Assembly: GCA_951828515.1 (NCBI GenBank)
Contig: OX639992.1
Coordinates: 4,752,217 to 4,816,216, forward strand
DNA: 64,000 bases
Direction of reading: 5' to 3'
Source of the DNA: an uncultured Poribacteria bacterium
GTDB taxonomy: Bacteria; Poribacteria; WGA-4E; WGA-3G
Shown here: one piece after another, positions 39,063 through 49,611 of the stretch
Layout of the letters: each line of letters starts with the position of its first letter
Position numbering within the stretch: position 1 is the first letter of the stretch
Notes under the pieces: generated by a model
The model's database searches: none
What the model saw: the letters and a program-made list of their open reading frames with translations, nothing else
What the model was told of the DNA's origin: nothing
Made by a program: the position numbers and the translations under genes

Positions 39063-42000
39063 ATGCACGAAACACCTCTTAAAATGGACATTCAGCGCGG
39101 ACTCAGCGACTTCACGGACGGACAACTCGCGGAGAACGCGATGCAACTCCTGAAAGTGTTAGGATACGAAAGTCAACGCACGCTCAGTCGTCCCGATAAT
39201 ACCGTCAAGGCATTCCTTGAAGACTTTGACACGCACAGACGGATGAACCGAGAGAACACACTACTCCATGAATGGCAGACTGTAGACTTCCTCTTCCAAC
39301 TCACGGCTGATGAAATCAGACAGCATACACAAGAAACCATAATCTTCCATGAAAACCGAGGCGTTGATGAGACCCTCTATTATTCCTATCTCTTTCTCGC
39401 CATCAAACTCAAGGCGGATACCTATTCCCGCACGGCACTCGCCACTATCACGCGAGAGATTAACAAACTCTATACAATGCCCGCACTGCTGATTTTCCAG
39501 CATGGACAAACGCTCACTTTCGCTATTATCAACCGTAGACCGAGTCAGCGCGACGGCGACCGAGATGTCCTTGAAAAAGTGACACTCATCAAGGATATTG
39601 ATGTTGTGAATCCGCACCGTGCACACCTTGACATCTTGGCAGAATTGTCGCTGGATGCCTTGTATGAAAAATACGAATTCAGCAATTTTCTCGAGTTACA
39701 TCAGGCGTGGCAAAAGACACTGGACACCTCCGAACTCAACAGACGCTTCTTCAAAGAGATTGCCGATTGGTATTTCTGGGCAGTTGGAAAAGTGGCGTTT
39801 CCACCCGATGCCGGGAACAACGAAACCGTCCGAAATGCTACGTGCGTTATCCGTCTAATAACACGCCTCATCTTCGTCTGGTTTCTCAAGGAGAAAGACC
39901 TCGTGTCGAACACCCTCTTTGACGAAGACGACATTGCAAAGCTGCTTACGACCCTTGATCCACAGGAAAGCACCTATTACAAGGCGATCCTCCAGAACCT
40001 ATTCTTCGCAACATTGAATCAGGAAATGAACACGCCTGAAAGACCAAACACCCGCAAATTTCGAGGCGAGGGGCGACAGCACTATAATATCACATCGCTC
40101 TATCGCTACAAACGTTATTTCAGAGATCCTGACGCAGCACTTCGCTTGTTTGAGACGATTCCGTTTCTCAACGGAGGCTTGTTTGAATGCCTCGACAAAC
40201 CCGCTCCAGAATCTGTAGGAGCGAGTTCCAACTCGCGACCGAATGAAAAAATCTTGCGTGTGGATGGCTTCTCTGACAGAGAGGATAACCCGCTTTCTGT
40301 CCCAAACGAGCTCTTCTTCTCCGAACCGCAAGCCGTAAATCTCAACGCCGTCTACGACACAAAAAACAGCCGGTATACCGTTCGGGGTTTAATCCACATC
40401 CTCAATCGCTACAAGTTCACGATTGCTGAGAACACACCGATAGAACAAGAGGTCGCCCTGGATCCAGAGTTGCTCGGTCAGGTATTTGAGAATCTACTCG
40501 CCGCGTATAATCCTGAAACCGGCACGACTGCGCGTAAACAGACGGGGTCGTTCTACACACCCCGTGAGATTGTCAACTACATGGTAGACGAATCCCTCAT
40601 CACCCATCTGAAGGAAAGTAGCAGGCACAATCCCTTGTGCCGTAGCATTGGTACTGATGCGGCAACTGAAGCCAAACTCCGTCACCTCCTCGCCTACAAC
40701 GACGAACCCCATCAATTCACCGATGCCGAAGTGGAACATCTCATTAACGCCATAGACACACTGAAGATCCTCGATCCCGCGTGCGGTTCCGGTGCCTTCC
40801 CGATGGGGATCCTCCACAAACTCGTCTTTTTGCTCGGTAAACTCGATCCCCGCAACGCCCAGTGGCGGCAACGCCAGATTGACAGAGTCGAAAAGACCAT
40901 CGCGACAGCAGAAAAGATTGACGACAGCGTTATCCGCGAAAGCACGATTGACGAATTAGAAGGCGAAATTGAGAGTATTAACGAGGCATTTGAACGCAAC
41001 GCACTCGACTACGGCAGAAAACTTTACCTGATAGAGAACTGCATCTATGGGGTAGACATCCAACCGATTGCGACACAGATCGCTAAACTCCGATTCTTCA
41101 TCTCTTTGATCGTGGAGCAAAGAATCGACAACGCGCGTGAAAATCGAGGTGTGCGTCCGTTGCCGAACCTTGAGACGAAGTTCGTCGCGGCGAATACACT
41201 CCTCGATGTGGAGAAACCCGCGCAACTCCTCCTCCGCAACCCGGAGGTAGACCACAAAGAGAAGGCGTTAGAAGAGGTCCGCCGTAGGCACTTCACTGCC
41301 AGAACCCCGCGCACCAAAGACCGGTATCGCAACCGCGACACGGAACTTCGCGCCGAGATTAGCGCGTTGCTGCAGTCGGACGGGTTTCCGAGTGAGACGA
41401 CCGAGAAGATCGCCAATTGGGATCCATACAACCAAAACGCCACTGCAGACTTCTTTGACCCCGAATGGATGTTCGGCATCACAGACGGATTTGATGTCGT
41501 AATTGGCAATCCGCCTTATGTCCGTCAAGAGAAAATCAAGGATCTCAAACCCGAATTGAAAAAACGATACACCTGTTACACGGGGGCAGCAGACCTTTAC
41601 GTCTATTTCTATGAACGCGGGCTTCAACTGCTCAACGCAAACGGCACACATACCTTTATCTGTTCCAACAGTTGGCTGGATGTGAACTACGGTGCGCCGT
41701 TACAGAAGTATCTATTAGACAACACCGCGGGTGCCGTTATCTGCCACAGCGAGGCGGAACGAGAGTTTGAGAGTGCGGACATCAACACCATTGTCAGTAT
41801 TCTCCACAACGGGACTCCCGATGCGGATTCCCACATCCGTTTTCTTACCTTCAAGACATTCATAGGCGATCCAAACGTAGAAAACCGTCGCGAGCGAATG
41901 CCTACCTATCCTGAGTTAGCACAAGCGGGCATGCGCGATAACAGATACACCGGTGACAAGTGGGGCGGGAAGTATCTACGCGCCCCTGACATCTATTGGA

Positions 42001-42806
42001 CGATTTTAGAGAAAGGGAAGGATAAATTAGTACGTCTGGGAGAAATCGCAGGGGTGAGACGGGGCTTCACAACAGGTGCAAATGAGTTCTTCTATCTTAA
42101 CGCTGAGCAGATTCAGGCATGGGGCATTGAGGATGAATTTTTGAAGCCTGTCATCAAGAGTCCACGGGAATGCAAAAGCATCCGTGTGGATCCCAGTCAG
42201 TTACAGTTCAAGTTGTTTATGTGCCATGCCGACAGAGTTTCCTTGTCGGGCACATCAGTATTGGAATTCATTGAATGGGGTGAATCTCAGGGGTATCATC
42301 AGCGGCCGAGTTGCAGCGGACGGGCGCGCTGGTGGGATTTGGGGAAACGTCAAATTCCATCGCTCTCTTTTAACTATCTGATTTCCTCAACTGCCAGAAC
42401 CCTATATGCGCGAAACGGTTGTTATACCAGCGACAATTTTCAGGAAATCCACACGGATTCGGATTTGATATTACCTTTATGTGCCTCCTTGAATTCGTCA
42501 TTGTTTCAACTGATGGTAAATATAGCGGGACGTTCTAATTTCGGTGGTGGTTTACTGAAGATTCAGACCTATGAAATTTCGGAGTTGCTCTGCTTGGATC
42601 CAAAAACCTTTGTATTTGAGGATGCAGCGATTTTCACGTCATCTTCATGGGAGATACTTGAACCCTCAGATGACCGGCGCGCCCTTGACACGATTATCTT
42701 CGATGCCTTGGATCTCACGCAAGGCGAGCGGGAGGGTGTATATGAAGCGATTGTGAACCTTGTGGAGTCTCGACTGCGGAAGGCACGGAGTTTGAAGGGG
42801 AAATAG
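39063..42806 (+). CDS. Type IIG restriction-methyltransferase (Eco57I/TaqI-like)
   Basis: A 1247-residue single-chain enzyme. The N-terminal about 500 residues hold the region that in this family carries nuclease and helical linker. The amino-methyltransferase core has motif I LDPACGSGAFPMGIL (about 576-590), a DIQPIATQIAKLR region and catalytic motif IV VVIGNPPYVRQEK (about 814-826). The C-terminal about 250 residues form a target-recognition part. It should methylate adenine and cut DNA near its site. I could not mark a clear PD-(D/E)xK motif, so cleavage is unproven. An in-frame palindromic repeat lies at 40213-40242. It leads the accessory region with the FRG-TPR and ATPase genes. Confidence 0.88.
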   Translation: MHETPLKMDIQRGLSDFTDGQLAENAMQLLKVLGYESQRTLSRPDNTVKAFLEDFDTHRRMNRENTLLHEWQTVDFLFQLTADEIRQHTQETIIFHENRGVDETLYYSYLFLAIKLKADTYSRTALATITREINKLYTMPALLIFQHGQTLTFAIINRRPSQRDGDRDVLEKVTLIKDIDVVNPHRAHLDILAELSLDALYEKYEFSNFLELHQAWQKTLDTSELNRRFFKEIADWYFWAVGKVAFPPDAGNNETVRNATCVIRLITRLIFVWFLKEKDLVSNTLFDEDDIAKLLTTLDPQESTYYKAILQNLFFATLNQEMNTPERPNTRKFRGEGRQHYNITSLYRYKRYFRDPDAALRLFETIPFLNGGLFECLDKPAPESVGASSNSRPNEKILRVDGFSDREDNPLSVPNELFFSEPQAVNLNAVYDTKNSRYTVRGLIHILNRYKFTIAENTPIEQEVALDPELLGQVFENLLAAYNPETGTTARKQTGSFYTPREIVNYMVDESLITHLKESSRHNPLCRSIGTDAATEAKLRHLLAYNDEPHQFTDAEVEHLINAIDTLKILDPACGSGAFPMGILHKLVFLLGKLDPRNAQWRQRQIDRVEKTIATAEKIDDSVIRESTIDELEGEIESINEAFERNALDYGRKLYLIENCIYGVDIQPIATQIAKLRFFISLIVEQRIDNARENRGVRPLPNLETKFVAANTLLDVEKPAQLLLRNPEVDHKEKALEEVRRRHFTARTPRTKDRYRNRDTELRAEISALLQSDGFPSETTEKIANWDPYNQNATADFFDPEWMFGITDGFDVVIGNPPYVRQEKIKDLKPELKKRYTCYTGAADLYVYFYERGLQLLNANGTHTFICSNSWLDVNYGAPLQKYLLDNTAGAVICHSEAEREFESADINTIVSILHNGTPDADSHIRFLTFKTFIGDPNVENRRERMPTYPELAQAGMRDNRYTGDKWGGKYLRAPDIYWTILEKGKDKLVRLGEIAGVRRGFTTGANEFFYLNAEQIQAWGIEDEFLKPVIKSPRECKSIRVDPSQLQFKLFMCHADRVSLSGTSVLEFIEWGESQGYHQRPSCSGRARWWDLGKRQIPSLSFNYLISSTARTLYARNGCYTSDNFQEIHTDSDLILPLCASLNSSLFQLMVNIAGRSNFGGGLLKIQTYEISELLCLDPKTFVFEDAAIFTSSSWEILEPSDDRRALDTIIFDALDLTQGEREGVYEAIVNLVESRLRKARSLKGK
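40213..40242. repeat. REP-like palindrome inserted in frame in the type IIG gene
   Basis: CTGTAGGAGCGAG-TTCC-AACTCGCGACCGA; stem GCGAGTT/AACTCGC (40221-40227 and 40230-40236). It encodes SVGASSNSRPN. A sister copy with the same TGTAGGAGCGAG head is in the gap at 43005. Confidence 0.8.
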
Positions 42807-43177: not shown

Positions 43178-46100
43178 ATGAGCACACAACAAACCGAACT
43201 AAACAGGATTTTGGAGATAATCGGCAAGATTGTGAAAATCTCTACCGATGGTGATTACATTTATCGTGGCGAGCAGAAATGCTACGAGAAAGTATCCTCA
43301 AACCTCTGGCGTGAACTCAACAAACTCAACTTATTAGATCTTGATGTAGAAGAAGTCCAAAAAAGAGAATTGGACGAGGCTAAAAGGCACAACAACAAAA
43401 CAGACGAATTTGAGATTCTCGTCGAGCTCCAACACTTTGGTGGTAAAACCAATTTGATAGACTTCACGACTGATCCTTACATCGCCCTCTTCTTCGCCGC
43501 CAACGGTTCTTTCAGTAAGAACGGGCGAGTTATCTTGCAAAGCAAAACTGGGAAAATAAAAGACTGGATCAAGGAACTTAGGGATCCAGAGGCAGACAGT
43601 CGTCCGATAAGGCAAAAAAGCATATTCGTTCGATCGCCTGAGGGTTTTATTCCGGATGATGTTATTAAATCAGACGAAATCATTATCATCGAGAAAGATC
43701 TCAAACTGCCTCTATTGAAGTATCTCCAAAGGCCGGAAATTGGCATATCTGCCGAAACCATCTATCATGACATCCACGGTTTCATCAGGAGCCAGAGCAG
43801 CCATTGGAGTGCTTACTTGGAAGCTCATACAGGTGAAAAACTTCAAGATAGCGCGGATGAAATAAAGGAGCCTAAGAAAAGAGCTGCGCGTTATCAAAAG
43901 GCAGTGGATCATTTAACCGACGCTATGAACCTAATGCCTCCTTCTGCAGGAACTTATTACAATCGCGGACGCGCTTATTACCAATTAGGTGAGGTTGATC
44001 TCGCGATCCAAGACTATGACGAGGCAATAAAATTGCGACCACACTTTGCTGAAGCTTATGACAATCGAGGTCTTGCTTACGATAAAAAAGGCGAATTTAA
44101 TTTTGCAATCGAAAATTATAATACTGCGATAAGGCTTGATCCAGATAGGGCGGAAGCCTATAATAATCGCGGGAGTGCCTACGCTATGGAAAGCAACTAT
44201 GATCTGGCAATTGAGGACTATAACAAGGCTGTATCACTGAATCCGGATGTTGCAGAAATGTATTATAACCGTGGTAATGCTTACTTCAGCAAGGGTGAGG
44301 ATGACTTGGCGATCAGGAACTACAGCAAAGCGATAGAACTGAATCCGGATGATATTAACGCCTATTACAATCGCGGTTTTGCTTATCGTAGGAAAGGCGA
44401 GCATGACCTAGCTACCCAAGACTTTAACAAAGTAACACAACTGAATCCGGACCATGCTCGAGGCTATCACAACCTGGGATTGGCTCACGGTATCAAAGGG
44501 CAGTATGACCAAGCGATTCAAAATTTTACCAAAGCAATCGAATTGGATCCAGAGTTTGTCGAATCCTATTACAATCGCGGTTTTGCTTATCAGAACAAAG
44601 GCGAGACAAACCGAGCAATTGAGGACTATAATACAGCCACTCGAATCAAACCCAGTTATGCTGAGGCCTATGTTAAACGCGGTGTGGCTTACTTCAGCAA
44701 AGGTAAGGTTGATGACACTGTTAAAGACTTTGAAAGTGCAATAGCGTTGGAACCAGCGTTGGATCATGCTTATTACAATCTCGGGTTTGCTTATTTCACT
44801 CAAACTGAGTACTCCAAAGCGATTGATAATTTTGATGCAGCAATACAACGGAATTCCAATACAGCAAATGCCTATTACTATCGCGGTAATGCGTATGGGC
44901 TGAGAAAGGAATTTGACAAAGCCATTAAGAACTATACCGAGGCGATAAAACTGGCACCAAAGGAGGCTGAAATATACCGCGTCCGAGGGCTTGCTTATAG
45001 TATCTCACACGAGGTCAACAAAGCCATTGATGACTTTAATGAGGTGATAAAACTACAACCTGATAATGCCGAAGCATATAGAATTCGTGGGAGTGCCTTC
45101 GGTATGAAGGACGATTTTGAAAATGCTATTGAAGACTGTACCCATGCGATAAAACTACAACCTGATAATGCTGAATCATATAGTACTCTCGGACTTGCTT
45201 ATTACTCCAAAGACGATTTGGACAACGCTGTTGCTAACTTAAACGAGGCAATTCGCCTAAATCCAGATTATTCATTAGTTTATTACGCGCTTGGTGCTAT
45301 TTATAATCGTAAAGACGATTTGGACAACGCTATTGCTAACTTGAAAGAGGCAATTCGCCTTAACCCAGATTTTGCCTTAGCCTATTGCACTCTGGGCACC
45401 GTTTATAGAAACAAAAATGAAGTGGACCAAGCTATTGAAGCGTATAACAAGGTGATAGAACTTAAGCCCAAATTTGGCGAAGCATATTACTATCGGGGAG
45501 TTTCCTACTACTACAAAAATGATTTTGAAAATGCCATCAATGACCTTAGTGAGGCAATTCAACTAAAGTCTAATGTAGCAGAAGCATATCACTATCGCGG
45601 TCAAGCTTACTGTGTTAAATATGATTTTGATAAAGCGATTAATGACTTCAGCGTAGTAATCAAAATACAACCTAATAATGCCAGGGACTACAACATTCGG
45701 GGTGCAGCTTACATCCTCAAATATGATTTTGATAAAGCGATCAATGATTTTACCACGGCGATAAAGCTTGATCCAAATGCTACTAACTACCACAACCGAG
45801 GTATTGCTTATGGTAGAAAAGGTGAGATTGGTAGGGCCATCAGTGACTTTCGTATGGCAATAAAACTTAATCCTAATAATACCAACGCTTATAGTCATCG
45901 ACTGGGAGCCTATAGCATTGAAGGCGATTTTGACAAAGGCATTGCAGAACTTACCGAGGTAATAAAACGCAACCCTGACTTTGTTGATGCCTACCATGTC
46001 CGTGGTGTTACTTATCACGAAAATGGAGAAATCGATAATGCTATTGAGGATTATACCAAAGTAATACAGCTGAACCCGAGAGAGGCTGAGGCTTACTATT

Positions 46101-48154
46101 GCCGTGGCCTCGCTTATGGAAATAAAAACGAGATTGACAAGGTTATCAATGACTTCAGCAAATTAATAGAACTGAAGCCAGACCATGCCGCTGCCTATCA
46201 TAGACGTGGGCTGGCTTATTCCTATATAGGTGATTTTGACAACGCCATTAATGATTTTGATATGGAGATAAAACTCAATCCTGACGATGCGTATGCCTAT
46301 TGGGGGCGTGGACGCGCTTACACAGATAAAGATGAACTTGATAAGGCAATTGCGGACTATAGCACAGCACTTGAACTCAAACCAGATTTTGCCGAAGTCT
46401 ACTATGACCGCGGGCATGCTAAGGCCATTAAAGATAATTTTGCCGAAGCGATTGAGGACTTTACCAAGGCGACAGAACTAAAACCGGATGATGCTGATAT
46501 CTACTATCGCCGTGGGATTGCTTATCTGACTAAAAAGGATTTTGACAAGGCTATTGAAGATCTTAGTAGAGTAGTCGAGTTGGATCCAGAGCATGCAGGC
46601 ACATATTACTATCGTGGTCTTGCTTATCTCTTCAAGGGAAATTTTGACGATTTAGCTATTGAAAACCTCAATAAAGCAATAGAACAGAATTCAGACCATG
46701 CCGACGCGTATTACTATCGCGGTGCCGCTTACAACTTTAAAGGTGAAGTTGAACTTGCTATCAAAGACTATACAAAAGCGATAGAACTTAAACCCGATTA
46801 CGCCGATGCCTATTGCAATCGGGGGACAGTTTATTTCAGTAAAGACAAAGTAAAGCAGGCTATTGAAGACTATACAAAAGCAATAGCACTCAAATCTGAT
46901 TATGCCGATGTCTATTACAATCGCGCAGAAGCGTGGTTACACCTACAGGAATGGGAAAAAGCCAAAGCAGACTTCATCAGGGCTAAAGACAAAGGGGTGG
47001 ATATTGTCGCGGCATTTCGGAACGATTATAGAAATACTGCCGCTTTTGAGCAGAAACATAAGGTTAAATTGCCGAAAGACATCGTTGCACTCGTCCGACA
47101 AGGTTTTAGGCATCGCTACCCTATAGTGGAGAAAACCTTAACCCCCGATGGAAAGCCTCTTGAGTCGCCGGAAGTGTTGGATCTGTCGCAGAGGTTCCGA
47201 GACGCTGGCCCACCCTTGGGTGAGTATCTCAAGGTGCCCCCCTCTTTCGGTATTGAAACAGTCCCCACTGAAGTATTTGTAGTAGATAGGGCGAAGCGAG
47301 ATGAACTTATTGAAGAACACCCTTCATCCGCTGATATTTTAAAGCCGTTTTTGCAGGGGTCGGATATCAGACGTTGGCAGGTAGAATCCCAGGATCAGTG
47401 GTTAATCTTTACCCACCTCGGTATAGAGATTAAGGATTATCCCGCAATCCTGAAATATTTGGAAAAATACAAAGAACTTCTGAGCAAAAGAGGGAACGAA
47501 CAAGAATGGTATAAACTCCAAGCATCTCTTGACGAGGCAGAACGTTTCGCACAACCGAAACTGGTCTGTCCAAACCTCTATAACACGCAAACTTTCGCCG
47601 TCGAGACTGAGGGTCTTTACTGTGGATACACCTCCTACGTTATTCCGACCGCCGAAAAGTGGTTATGTGGTTTACTCAATACACTCCCTGTGGAATGGTT
47701 CTATTCGCAAGTGTCCAAACAGTTAGACGGGGGTAAACTTGAGGCACGCAGTGAGTATATCAAGCAGATTCCTGTCCCCGATATCAACGCAACACAGAAA
47801 GACTTGGTTCGCAAACTCGTTGATTACCTCATATACCTCCAGCAACAACCCACAACGAACAGCAAGGATTTGGCACATGCTCGCGACTTCATGGTACTCA
47901 AATATTTTGAGTGGATTGTCAATGGATTGGTTTACGAGTTTTATATGCCAGATCTGCTTCAGAGTGCCAACCGAGACATCTTCAAACATTTAATGGCAGA
48001 AGCGTTACCCGAGATAGATGAAATTCAAAGCGATAAAATGTCCTTTTTCCGTTCACTCTATGAACGCTTACATCACAGAGAACACCCAGTGCGCGTAAAT
48101 ACGTTTTTTCACGATGGTTTACGACCTATCCGTATCATTGAGGATAAATGGTGA
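43178..48154 (+). CDS. FRG domain + about 30 TPRs + TaqI-type target-recognition domain fusion
   Basis: A 1658-residue protein. Residues 1-235 are an FRG domain: YIYRGEQ (27-33; the (F/Y)RG motif) and LQHFGGKTNLIDFTTDPY (84-101) with IALFFAA. Residues about 257-1277 are roughly thirty 34-residue TPRs of consensus AEAYYNRGxAYxxKGExDxAI. Residues about 1385-1640 match the C-terminal specificity domain of TaqI/type IIG enzymes (ILKPFLQGSDIRRWQ, GYTSYVIPT, LLNTLPVEWFYSQVS, EYIKQIPVPD), with no methyltransferase in between. TPR domains bind proteins and the last domain normally reads DNA. FRG is frequent in defence-associated genes and its activity is unknown. Stop overlaps the ATPase start by 7 nt. 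Confidence 0.85.
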   Translation: MSTQQTELNRILEIIGKIVKISTDGDYIYRGEQKCYEKVSSNLWRELNKLNLLDLDVEEVQKRELDEAKRHNNKTDEFEILVELQHFGGKTNLIDFTTDPYIALFFAANGSFSKNGRVILQSKTGKIKDWIKELRDPEADSRPIRQKSIFVRSPEGFIPDDVIKSDEIIIIEKDLKLPLLKYLQRPEIGISAETIYHDIHGFIRSQSSHWSAYLEAHTGEKLQDSADEIKEPKKRAARYQKAVDHLTDAMNLMPPSAGTYYNRGRAYYQLGEVDLAIQDYDEAIKLRPHFAEAYDNRGLAYDKKGEFNFAIENYNTAIRLDPDRAEAYNNRGSAYAMESNYDLAIEDYNKAVSLNPDVAEMYYNRGNAYFSKGEDDLAIRNYSKAIELNPDDINAYYNRGFAYRRKGEHDLATQDFNKVTQLNPDHARGYHNLGLAHGIKGQYDQAIQNFTKAIELDPEFVESYYNRGFAYQNKGETNRAIEDYNTATRIKPSYAEAYVKRGVAYFSKGKVDDTVKDFESAIALEPALDHAYYNLGFAYFTQTEYSKAIDNFDAAIQRNSNTANAYYYRGNAYGLRKEFDKAIKNYTEAIKLAPKEAEIYRVRGLAYSISHEVNKAIDDFNEVIKLQPDNAEAYRIRGSAFGMKDDFENAIEDCTHAIKLQPDNAESYSTLGLAYYSKDDLDNAVANLNEAIRLNPDYSLVYYALGAIYNRKDDLDNAIANLKEAIRLNPDFALAYCTLGTVYRNKNEVDQAIEAYNKVIELKPKFGEAYYYRGVSYYYKNDFENAINDLSEAIQLKSNVAEAYHYRGQAYCVKYDFDKAINDFSVVIKIQPNNARDYNIRGAAYILKYDFDKAINDFTTAIKLDPNATNYHNRGIAYGRKGEIGRAISDFRMAIKLNPNNTNAYSHRLGAYSIEGDFDKGIAELTEVIKRNPDFVDAYHVRGVTYHENGEIDNAIEDYTKVIQLNPREAEAYYCRGLAYGNKNEIDKVINDFSKLIELKPDHAAAYHRRGLAYSYIGDFDNAINDFDMEIKLNPDDAYAYWGRGRAYTDKDELDKAIADYSTALELKPDFAEVYYDRGHAKAIKDNFAEAIEDFTKATELKPDDADIYYRRGIAYLTKKDFDKAIEDLSRVVELDPEHAGTYYYRGLAYLFKGNFDDLAIENLNKAIEQNSDHADAYYYRGAAYNFKGEVELAIKDYTKAIELKPDYADAYCNRGTVYFSKDKVKQAIEDYTKAIALKSDYADVYYNRAEAWLHLQEWEKAKADFIRAKDKGVDIVAAFRNDYRNTAAFEQKHKVKLPKDIVALVRQGFRHRYPIVEKTLTPDGKPLESPEVLDLSQRFRDAGPPLGEYLKVPPSFGIETVPTEVFVVDRAKRDELIEEHPSSADILKPFLQGSDIRRWQVESQDQWLIFTHLGIEIKDYPAILKYLEKYKELLSKRGNEQEWYKLQASLDEAERFAQPKLVCPNLYNTQTFAVETEGLYCGYTSYVIPTAEKWLCGLLNTLPVEWFYSQVSKQLDGGKLEARSEYIKQIPVPDINATQKDLVRKLVDYLIYLQQQPTTNSKDLAHARDFMVLKYFEWIVNGLVYEFYMPDLLQSANRDIFKHLMAEALPEIDEIQSDKMSFFRSLYERLHHREHPVRVNTFFHDGLRPIRIIEDKW
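43946..47008 (+). repeat. About thirty 102-bp coding repeats (TPR array)
   Basis: Thirty near-regular 34-codon units, with only two length deviations (33 codons near residue 869, 35 near 1141). Adjacent units share up to most positions (for example the two units with DDLDNA(V/I)ANL near 45220 and 45320), indicating recent tandem duplication. Confidence 0.9.
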
Positions 48155-49611
48155 AAATTACGAAAATTGAGATCAAAAACTTCAAAACTTTCCGAGGACC
48201 AGATCAGATTGACCTCGGTAACAAAGGGAGAAACCTGTTAATTTACGGTGAAAATGGAAGCGGCAAAACGTCTCTATATGAAGCCTTAAAGTTCTTCCTT
48301 GAATCCAGTGAAGGGACACACCAATTTGGGGATTATAGGAATATATTTTCAGATGAAACCGATAAAGGCTATATCAAACTTCACTTCACACCTGACCCAA
48401 GCTTAAATAAAGAAATGTATGAATGGTCCGAAAATATTCAGAACGACACCAAAATTAAACCGATGATTGATGCATCTAAAGCAAAAGGATTTCTTGATTA
48501 TAAAGATCTCTTGAAGACAAATTATCTTCATCACGGAAAAAATAGTGTGAATGTGTTTGATTTATTGATCAATACGCTCTTGAAAAATGTGGAGAACGAT
48601 CAAACCTTTCCCAGGACCAGTTTTTCTGAGCAGTGGATGAGCATTTCAGGCATTCTTTCTCCAGACGAAAACGCGGAACAACAAATTGAAAATCCAGAAG
48701 AACAATTAGAGCAGTTGCAGATTTTCAATAGCGGACTCGCTGCTAAGTTAGTAGACTTAGCGGCGGAAGCCTCTAAAATCCTCGGCAAATTTGGATATAA
48801 TATTGATTTTAAATTCGTTTTTCATGGAGTTAGGTATAACAGCCAGGAACAGAAACTTTATGATACAGAGATTCTCTTAACAGTTAAGTTCCTTGATGAA
48901 GATATACGTTCACATCACCGCTTTTTGAATGAAGCAAAATTATCAGCAATTGCCCTTTCAATCTTTTTCGCTGGGTTCAAGCTACAGCCAGACAGTGACC
49001 TGAAGATTCTTGTTATAGATGATGCTTTAATTGGCTTGGACCTATCAAATCGCTTACCTGTGCTTGATATTCTGGATGAAAGAGATTTCGCAAAATATCA
49101 GATCATTTTGATGACTTATGACCGGATATTTTATGAAATGGTCAAAAAGCGTAAATCCGAAGATAAAAAATGGAAAGCTGCTGAGCTCTACTGTGGAAAA
49201 GTTGATGGCTATGAAATACCAGTCTATGTGGAAGATAAAACATACCTTGAAAGAGCGAGGGAATATCTTGATGCAAATGACTACAAGGCTTGTGCAGTTT
49301 ACGTTCGTACTGCTTATGAAGCAATAATTAAAGGATACTGTGAGAAAAAGAACATTGGTGTTAAATATCGAGAGAATGTAAATGAGTTGGATAGTAATGA
49401 TTTTTGGACACTGATAAAAGATAAAAAAATACCAGATCCAAAAAGCAATAAACCAAAACGCCTTCTAAAGCTCGCTCTTGTTAAAAAGATAGAATTGGCT
49501 AGAAAATTTACTCTAAATCCACTAAGCCATGCTAACATTGTGAATATCCCCAGAAAAGAACTTGAAGATGCCATTGAAGCAGTCGAATGGCTTGAGGATG
49601 CGTTAGCATAG
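48148..49611 (+). CDS. RecF/SMC-like AAA ATPase with helical C-terminal domain
   Basis: A 487-residue ATPase. IEIKNFKTFRG opens it and Walker A GENGSGKTS spans 34-42. The signature-like LNEAKLSAIALSIF is followed by Walker B ILVIDDALIGLDLSNR (Asp291-Asp292). The usual catalytic Glu after the Walker B Asp is replaced by Asp. No long coiled coil separates the halves. Residues about 370-487 form a helical domain (YLDANDYKACAVYVRTAYEAIIKGYC; NPLSHANI) recalling HEPN-like folds, but the R-x8-H spacing (Arg452, His461) does not fit the RNase motif. The start overlaps the FRG-TPR stop, so the two are made together. Likely the power or switch subunit of that system. Confidence 0.85.
   Translation: MVKITKIEIKNFKTFRGPDQIDLGNKGRNLLIYGENGSGKTSLYEALKFFLESSEGTHQFGDYRNIFSDETDKGYIKLHFTPDPSLNKEMYEWSENIQNDTKIKPMIDASKAKGFLDYKDLLKTNYLHHGKNSVNVFDLLINTLLKNVENDQTFPRTSFSEQWMSISGILSPDENAEQQIENPEEQLEQLQIFNSGLAAKLVDLAAEASKILGKFGYNIDFKFVFHGVRYNSQEQKLYDTEILLTVKFLDEDIRSHHRFLNEAKLSAIALSIFFAGFKLQPDSDLKILVIDDALIGLDLSNRLPVLDILDERDFAKYQIILMTYDRIFYEMVKKRKSEDKKWKAAELYCGKVDGYEIPVYVEDKTYLERAREYLDANDYKACAVYVRTAYEAIIKGYCEKKNIGVKYRENVNELDSNDFWTLIKDKKIPDPKSNKPKRLLKLALVKKIELARKFTLNPLSHANIVNIPRKELEDAIEAVEWLEDALA

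Follow-up and report, generated by a model that had tools for sequence, protein, structure and literature searches.

The window analysed here, a stretch of 64,000 nucleotides (nt) on contig OX639992.1 of an uncultured Poribacteria bacterium, encodes a 1658-residue protein that joins an FRG domain and a long TPR array to what looks like the C-terminal target-recognition domain (TRD) of a type IIG restriction enzyme. What does a TRD do on a protein that has no methyltransferase? We find that the gene belongs to a family that is paired with an overlapping ATPase gene and in which the N-terminal domain has been exchanged repeatedly. The exchange of the front end and the kept ATPase pairing across dozens of bacteria suggest an antiviral alarm system, and we lean towards a reading in which the TRD would be the sensing end, for DNA or a DNA-like ligand, of a two-gene defence module that carries its own effector. 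The architecture of this module is well supported; its function is what we infer from it.

The C-terminal domain is a TRD without a methyltransferase

The C-terminal region of the protein matches Pfam TaqI_C (PF12950) over residues 1389-1533, scoring 48.7 bits where the cutoff is 26.5 (E 1.1e-12), corresponding to positions 47342-47776 of the window. PADLOC models of type IIG enzymes match residues 1320-1578 (E 3e-21), and this match involves only the C-terminal portion of the models (profile positions 854-1133 of 1148). A search of PDB sequences with the family profile gave one relevant match, M.BseCI (E 7e-17, profile positions 39-262). The AlphaFold2 model used covers residues 1317-1658, with a mean predicted local distance difference test score (pLDDT) of 75.6 and a predicted template modelling score (pTM) of 0.76. 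Its fold resembles CamA and M.BseCI in Foldseek (E 1e-11), and structural comparison gave Z 19.3 (VIA) for M.BseCI over 255 residues with a root-mean-square deviation of 3.8, Z ~19 for CamA, 14.6 for MmeI, 13.2 for PglX/BrxX and 10.8 for M.TaqI. A TaqI_C-like fold is thus predicted, so the outcome that would have spoken against the domain, a prediction with no such fold, did not occur.

A motif scan found neither NPPY-type nor S-adenosylmethionine (SAM) motif I patterns in any of the 50 family proteins described below, the window protein included. None of the 50 therefore has the pair of motifs in one protein that defines a type IIG enzyme, and no methylase core is present in the 50 fused open reading frames (ORFs). 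At the level of sequence and model, the C-terminal domain is confirmed as a TaqI_C-type TRD without a methyltransferase. A sequence-only reading of the window had proposed just such a TaqI/type IIG-like specificity domain, joined as a DNA-specificity module to a TPR scaffold in a protein of 1658 residues lacking SAM-binding and NPPY motifs; Pfam, PADLOC and the predicted fold bear out the domain and its attachment, and the motif scan agrees on the motifs. The extent of residues ~1385-1640 given there needs revision: the domain itself stands, but it starts at ~1341, and residues 1592-1658 form a separate conserved tail. The features of the locus are as follows:

43178..48154, + strand: FRG-TPR-TRD-tail protein, 1658 residues (ORF call, Pfam)
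43178..43807, + strand: FRG domain, ART superfamily, possible NADase (Pfam E 4e-13; PDC-S15 models E 1e-18)
43900..47135, + strand: TPR array, ~30 repeats (TPR_1, 29 stretches, E 3e-222)
47198..47950, + strand: TaqI_C-type TRD, residues ~1341-1591 (Pfam, PADLOC, predicted fold)
47951..48151, + strand: conserved C-terminal tail, residues 1592-1658, ~67 residues (tail hidden Markov model, HMM)
48148..49611, + strand: RecF/SMC/Rad50-head-like ATPase, 487 residues (SMC_N E 1e-14; Foldseek SMC/Rad50 heads E ~1e-12)
39063..42806, + strand: type IIG-like adenine methylase, 1247 residues (Pfam Eco57I E 3e-38, M_Eco57I_C E 5e-5)

The Pfam match to FRG spans residues 26-111, and the homologous region reaches ~210. 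The start of the ATPase gene overlaps the stop of the FRG-TPR-TRD gene by 7 nt. In the upstream IIG enzyme, LDPACGSG is found at residue 570 and NPPY at 816. Among the genes immediately around the locus, Pfam identifies a rhodanese, a TonB receptor and a squalene-hopene cyclase.

The fused TRD is conserved and paired with an ATPase

We surveyed 84 Poribacteria genomes. Some TRD match is present in 67 of them, many of these being ordinary IIG enzymes, and 50 genes in 38 genomes match the 280-residue TRD query near-completely with at least 46% identity (one is cut at a contig end). The set of 50 consists of the window gene and 49 genes from fetched loci (L numbers) with TRD E <= 1e-80; L088 and L089, with weaker or cut matches, were excluded. 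L088 is an FRG-TPR-TRD gene cut at a contig end. In L089 (8627-10975), a TIR-TPR-TRD is in frame with the C-terminal half of the ATPase through an apparent deletion, with positions 1-97 of the TRD query followed by ATPase residues 235-485. All of the 50 ORFs except L077 and L095 contain TPRs. The TPR span ranges from 140 to 1180 residues across the 47 relatives with detected TPRs while the TRD stays constant, suggesting fast repeat turnover.

The ratio of nonsynonymous to synonymous substitution rates (dN/dS) of the fused TRD has a median of 0.12 (21 pairs) and of 0.11 in 7 further pairs; these comparisons point to a TRD and tail kept under purifying selection. With a mean identity of 63.9%, versus 61.8% for the ATPase, the fused TRD is not hypervariable. 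Mean pairwise column identity is 57-70% over residues 1344-1591 and 60% in the tail. Given that TPR genes are common and repetitive, a chance fusion, or an assembly chimera in which the end of a broken IIG gene was joined to a TPR gene, might be imagined. We rejected such an artefact or decay as having a negligible probability, on the grounds that the locus lies on a single 5.85-Mb contig, the architecture recurs in 38 of the 84 genomes and dN/dS is low.

An overlap of 4 or 7 nt between the TRD stop and the ATPase start is present in 43 of the 49 fetched genes, or 44 of 50 with the window. The P-loop and the Walker B DD (D291-D292) are invariant in 39 aligned ATPases, and the ATPase model resembles SMC and Rad50 heads; its C-terminus is weakly HEPN-like (17.9 bits, below the cutoff of 22). 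Identity of the fused TRD rises and falls with that of the ATPase encoded next to it (Mantel test over 39 loci, r 0.50, p 0.0001). In a phylum-wide search, 39 of the 84 genomes gave an ATPase match, and in six genomes (G051, G027, G031, G073, G056 and G058) such a match lacks an adjoining TRD match. The contig ends on the upstream side of the match in G051, G027, G031 and G056, the match in G073 is truncated near a contig end, and the piece in G058 is a short remnant within its contig. These six count neither for nor against TRD-ATPase pairing.

The N-terminal effector is exchanged

Among the 50, the N-terminus is TIR in 24, FRG in 6, HNH in 3 (HNH_5-like, below the Pfam cutoff) and without an effector in 17, including L045, whose N-terminus consists of N letters and is therefore unreadable. 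The classes are scripted counts over 49 genes (including L088 and L089, excluding L077 and L095) with the window added; L072 was assigned to TIR by eye, and Pfam was run on ten representatives. On a TRD tree of 49 fused rows (L095 left out; TIR 23, FRG 5, HNH 3, none 18), TIR, FRG and HNH must have replaced one another at least 6 times, the minimum possible being 2, and 16 changes are needed when "none" is treated as a state. PMC9503650 assigns FRG to the ART superfamily and considers it a possible NADase; on that view, NAD+ may be the target of two of the three front domains.

Several effector-less genes have a candidate partner nearby. A separate FRG-TPR gene lies directly upstream of L041, L049 and L085, and a TIR-TPR gene lies 1 nt from L079. 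A NERD/UvrD-helicase-like gene is found directly 5' of the effector-less TPR-TRD in L058 (6997-8946) and L076 (6001-7908), and the upstream gene of L078 looks similar, Pfam having been run for L058 and L076 only. In L040, L042 and L073, the upstream gene is an IIG. Inspection of the neighbourhoods of L009, L047, L063, L067, L081 and L084 revealed no obvious effector gene. L009 (7903-11891) is a paralogue in the window genome, comprising TPR-TRD plus ATPase with neither an effector domain nor an obvious upstream effector gene. The same genome contains another IIG (L010, 3443-9447; TRD 27% identical to the fused TRD) followed by an FRG-TPR gene without TRD or ATPase, showing that FRG-TPR pairs with IIG alone too.

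Methylase-bearing relatives and the C-terminal tail

In L104 and L119, two contigs from IMG/VR, the same TRD and tail form the end of an intact methylase that has both SAM motif and NPPY, and the methylase gene overlaps an ATPase gene of the same family by 4 nt. In blastp, the upstream IIG of the window shows 45% and 43% identity to the methylase cores of L104 and L119; the fused TRD shares 28-29% identity with the C-termini of these methylases, and the window ATPase 43% and 31% with the ATPases of the two contigs. The IIG and the fused gene of the window together thus span what is one polypeptide there. Judged by these alignments, TRD and methylase core are separated in the window and the ATPase link is kept; the direction of change, loss or gain of the methylase, is not polarised. 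The L104 (7-8624) and L119 (1-7479) loci comprise a Snf2-type helicase, the intact adenine methylase and the SMC-like ATPase, and L104 additionally encodes a 418-residue protein without a Pfam, PADLOC or NCBIfam match. This gene set may constitute a separate restriction system.

More distant versions occur in Prevotella (L100) and in L120, with a methylase followed by the ATPase and 1 nt between them; in L100, an HNH_5 gene comes after the ATPase. GNAT-domain proteins are encoded after the ATPase in L103 (1-3829), where the copy has a PIN-like region, and in Prevotella L100 (6001-10820), where it follows the HNH gene; they are possible further effectors. On a Nostoc conjugative plasmid, a 338-residue TRD-plus-tail protein stands by itself, its gene overlapping that of an ATPase with 46% identity to the one in the window, and a Thiospirochaeta plasmid encodes a small TRD-like protein overlapping an ATPase (29% identity). 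The Thiospirochaeta ATPase (L099, 6599-8341) has an N-terminal extension of ~130 residues without a Pfam match. Scans of viral sequences with the TRD-family alignment A1 and with P0003 gave no match, whereas scans with ATPase alignments yielded the informative loci.

The tail HMM corresponds to the last 85 positions (model residues 258-342) of alignment A1, and its match to all 49 fetched fused proteins has to be seen in light of the fact that it was built from these proteins themselves. It matched none of 21 Poribacterial IIG ORFs longer than 600 residues from the same set of loci. Outside Poribacteria, where the comparison involves small numbers, it matched all four ATPase-paired methylases (E 5e-30 to 3e-8) and the Nostoc protein, and the Thiospirochaeta protein only marginally. 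Four plasmid TaqI_C enzymes, which show no ATPase pairing in their annotated surroundings, were not matched. We propose that the tail, which tracks the ATPase, is a candidate ATPase-coupling element.

Co-divergence of the TRD with the ATPase and the distribution of the tail would also fit a domain that senses nothing and has become a structural adaptor, holding the effector-TPR arm on the ATPase. The alignment may be read in the same direction, with GIxTxPTEAF in much of the family and GITTGxNEAF in one clade. We nevertheless regard such a relic as improbable, as the whole domain and not the tail alone is conserved, and a DNA-recognition fold of 250 residues would be a strange choice for a mere adaptor where the tail could suffice.

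The fused TRD is not tuned to the neighbouring IIG enzyme

The sequence-only reading had further suggested that the fused TRD could recognise the site that the upstream enzyme methylates; unmethylated sites of that IIG would then trigger the system. The two genes are indeed adjacent and co-directional, and methylase core and TRD plus tail are one protein in relatives. The TRD of the upstream IIG, however, is of a different type, M_Eco57I_C (Pfam), and in the 13 loci with both genes the similarity of the fused TRDs does not follow that of the IIG TRDs (r 0.04, p 0.30; Mantel test). In the same loci, the IIG TRD follows the IIG core (r 0.80), and the fused TRD is weakly correlated with that core (r 0.21, p 0.026). 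Locus pairs with fused TRDs at least 84% identical have IIG TRDs that are 18-93% identical. For example, the fused TRDs of the window, L044 and L046 are 84-85% identical, and the IIG TRD of the window is 19% identical to those of L044 and L046. The IIG TRDs do diversify: in many pairs with cores at least 88% identical, they drop to 57-62%. With no correlation between the two TRDs, we conclude that the fused one has not been matched to the IIG beside it.

The association of the two genes is nevertheless real. An IIG of the upstream family lies within 6 kb 5' on the same strand in 13 of 49 loci and in the window; in 255 kb of upstream DNA, ~0.04 would be expected for these 49, a figure derived from a total of 149 IIG match pieces, many of them fragments, in the 84 genomes. 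Clustering in defence islands alone could explain part of this. The remaining 36 of the 50 loci have no such IIG, although 6 kb is not covered at every locus. None of the 84 genomes contains an IIG TRD more than ~40% identical to the fused TRD of the window. Dissimilar TRDs can in principle read one site. On the TRD comparison, and with most loci showing no IIG neighbour, we rejected recognition of a shared site as the best reading, and consider it very unlikely.

What the TRD may sense

In the reading that we favour, with the TRD as the sensing end of the module, the TRD would dock on invader DNA or on a DNA-like ligand, such as a DNA-mimicking anti-restriction protein; DNA is the default ligand for this fold. 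The tail would relay docking to the ATPase, and ATP turnover or multimerisation would free the effector held by the TPRs, so that FRG or TIR, by consuming NAD+, or HNH, by cutting nucleic acid, could halt the infected cell. In the window, the methylase core is encoded apart, by a neighbouring gene with a different TRD; TRD and tail stay with the ATPase and carry an FRG-TPR front.

A number of observations weigh against this reading. Only one of five AlphaFold2 models is confident, the other four averaging pLDDT 45-52. Six of the 49 fetched genes have no overlapping ATPase gene, and 17 of the 50 genes have no effector in cis, some of them also lacking a visible adjacent effector gene. Net charge does not separate the fused TRDs (+0.8) from IIG TRDs (-1.2) and is uninformative on DNA binding. 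A DNA sensor without a methylase must tell self from non-self, and the 84 genomes yielded no methylase whose TRD is closely similar. No PADLOC model fits the TRD protein and ATPase pair as a system, and the defence role is one that we infer from domain content.

The self-recognition problem would be avoided, and no cognate methylase needed, if the TRD were a bait for the proteins with which phages counter restriction (Ocr-like DNA mimics and other binders of the TRDs in restriction or BREX enzymes). Capture of such an inhibitor, rather than contact with DNA, would then set off the ATPase and effector, backing up restriction as a second line of defence. The absence of IIG-like diversification in the fused TRD is what would be expected of a bait with an invariant ligand, and nearby IIG neighbours, which such a second line would guard, are frequent. 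There are also precedents: Ocr is a trigger of PARIS, and PrrC responds when EcoprrI is inhibited (both in PMC9122126), and Ocr contacts TRD residues of BrxX (PMC11842806). PARIS AriA weakly matches the ATPase (E 5e-9). On the other hand, Poribacteria have no known anti-restriction ligand, although no search for one was made, the 36 loci without an IIG would have nothing of this family within the covered distance to guard, and slow evolution of the TRD fits several other readings as well. We regard the bait as a serious possibility, if clearly a minority one. Slightly less probable still is the full version, in which an enzyme-stripped TRD, as an integrated bait, would signal through the tail and a RecF/SMC-like ATPase to NADase or nuclease effectors and represent an undescribed class of immune receptor. 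Plant NLRs carry integrated decoys, and the bait would be their bacterial counterpart.

Comparison with known systems

With type IIG and TaqI-class methylases (M.BseCI, CamA, M.TaqI, BpuSI, MmeI), the window protein shares the C-terminal TRD fold and sequence family. It differs from them in lacking a SAM-binding or NPPY motif and in carrying the TRD on an effector-TPR protein beside an ATPase gene. Lamassu combines an SMC-type ATPase with interchangeable effectors, in the form of an LmuA effector and a long SMC protein, LmuB; it is not known to contain a TRD or TPR. Among PADLOC models, LmuB matches the ATPase best (E 1e-12), mainly over residues 2-87, and no PADLOC model matched an ATPase fragment of residues 90-487. 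MADS likewise has a methylase and an ATPase, and mad3 matches ATPase residues 3-328 (E 5e-11). The fused protein, in contrast, is methylase-less, and the NCBIfam MADS2 model scores 21.7 bits on the neighbouring IIG against a cutoff of 720, on which we rejected membership in MADS via a mad2-type methylase. The helicase-methylase-ATPase order of Hma resembles the intact L104 and L119 loci. HmaB is an m5C (5-methylcytosine) methylase according to PMC8565338, whereas the methylases here are of the Eco57I adenine type and hence not HmaB-like; HmaB and HmaC are absent among the matches listed.

BREX BrxX/PglX has a TRD of the same class by fold (Z 13). In PMC11842806, BrxX is both the methylase and an obligatory sensor of BREX, with Ocr binding to its TRD; unlike the window protein, BrxX retains its methylase and acts in a BrxBCXZ complex. 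PARIS (AriA/AriB) and PrrC-EcoprrI are ATPase-linked second lines of defence tied to restriction, and the passages of PMC9122126 considered here mention no TRD for them; the relation is by analogy only. PADLOC and NCBIfam system models matched only parts of the combination described here, and literature searches, within the portions of text they returned, gave no description of the fused TRD family.

If the module defends, it would show how an immune receptor can be made from a restriction methylase, with the recognition domain split from the enzyme, the ATPase link kept, and exchangeable NAD+-depleting or nuclease effectors attached. It would also make testable whether a TRD alone senses infection and how binding of DNA or an inhibitor reaches an SMC-type ATPase, and the combination of TRD, 67-residue tail and overlapping ATPase would provide a searchable signature for other phyla. 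The parts are known individually; what appears to be new is a restriction-derived recognition domain as the putative sensor of a defence built from an ATPase and interchangeable effectors.

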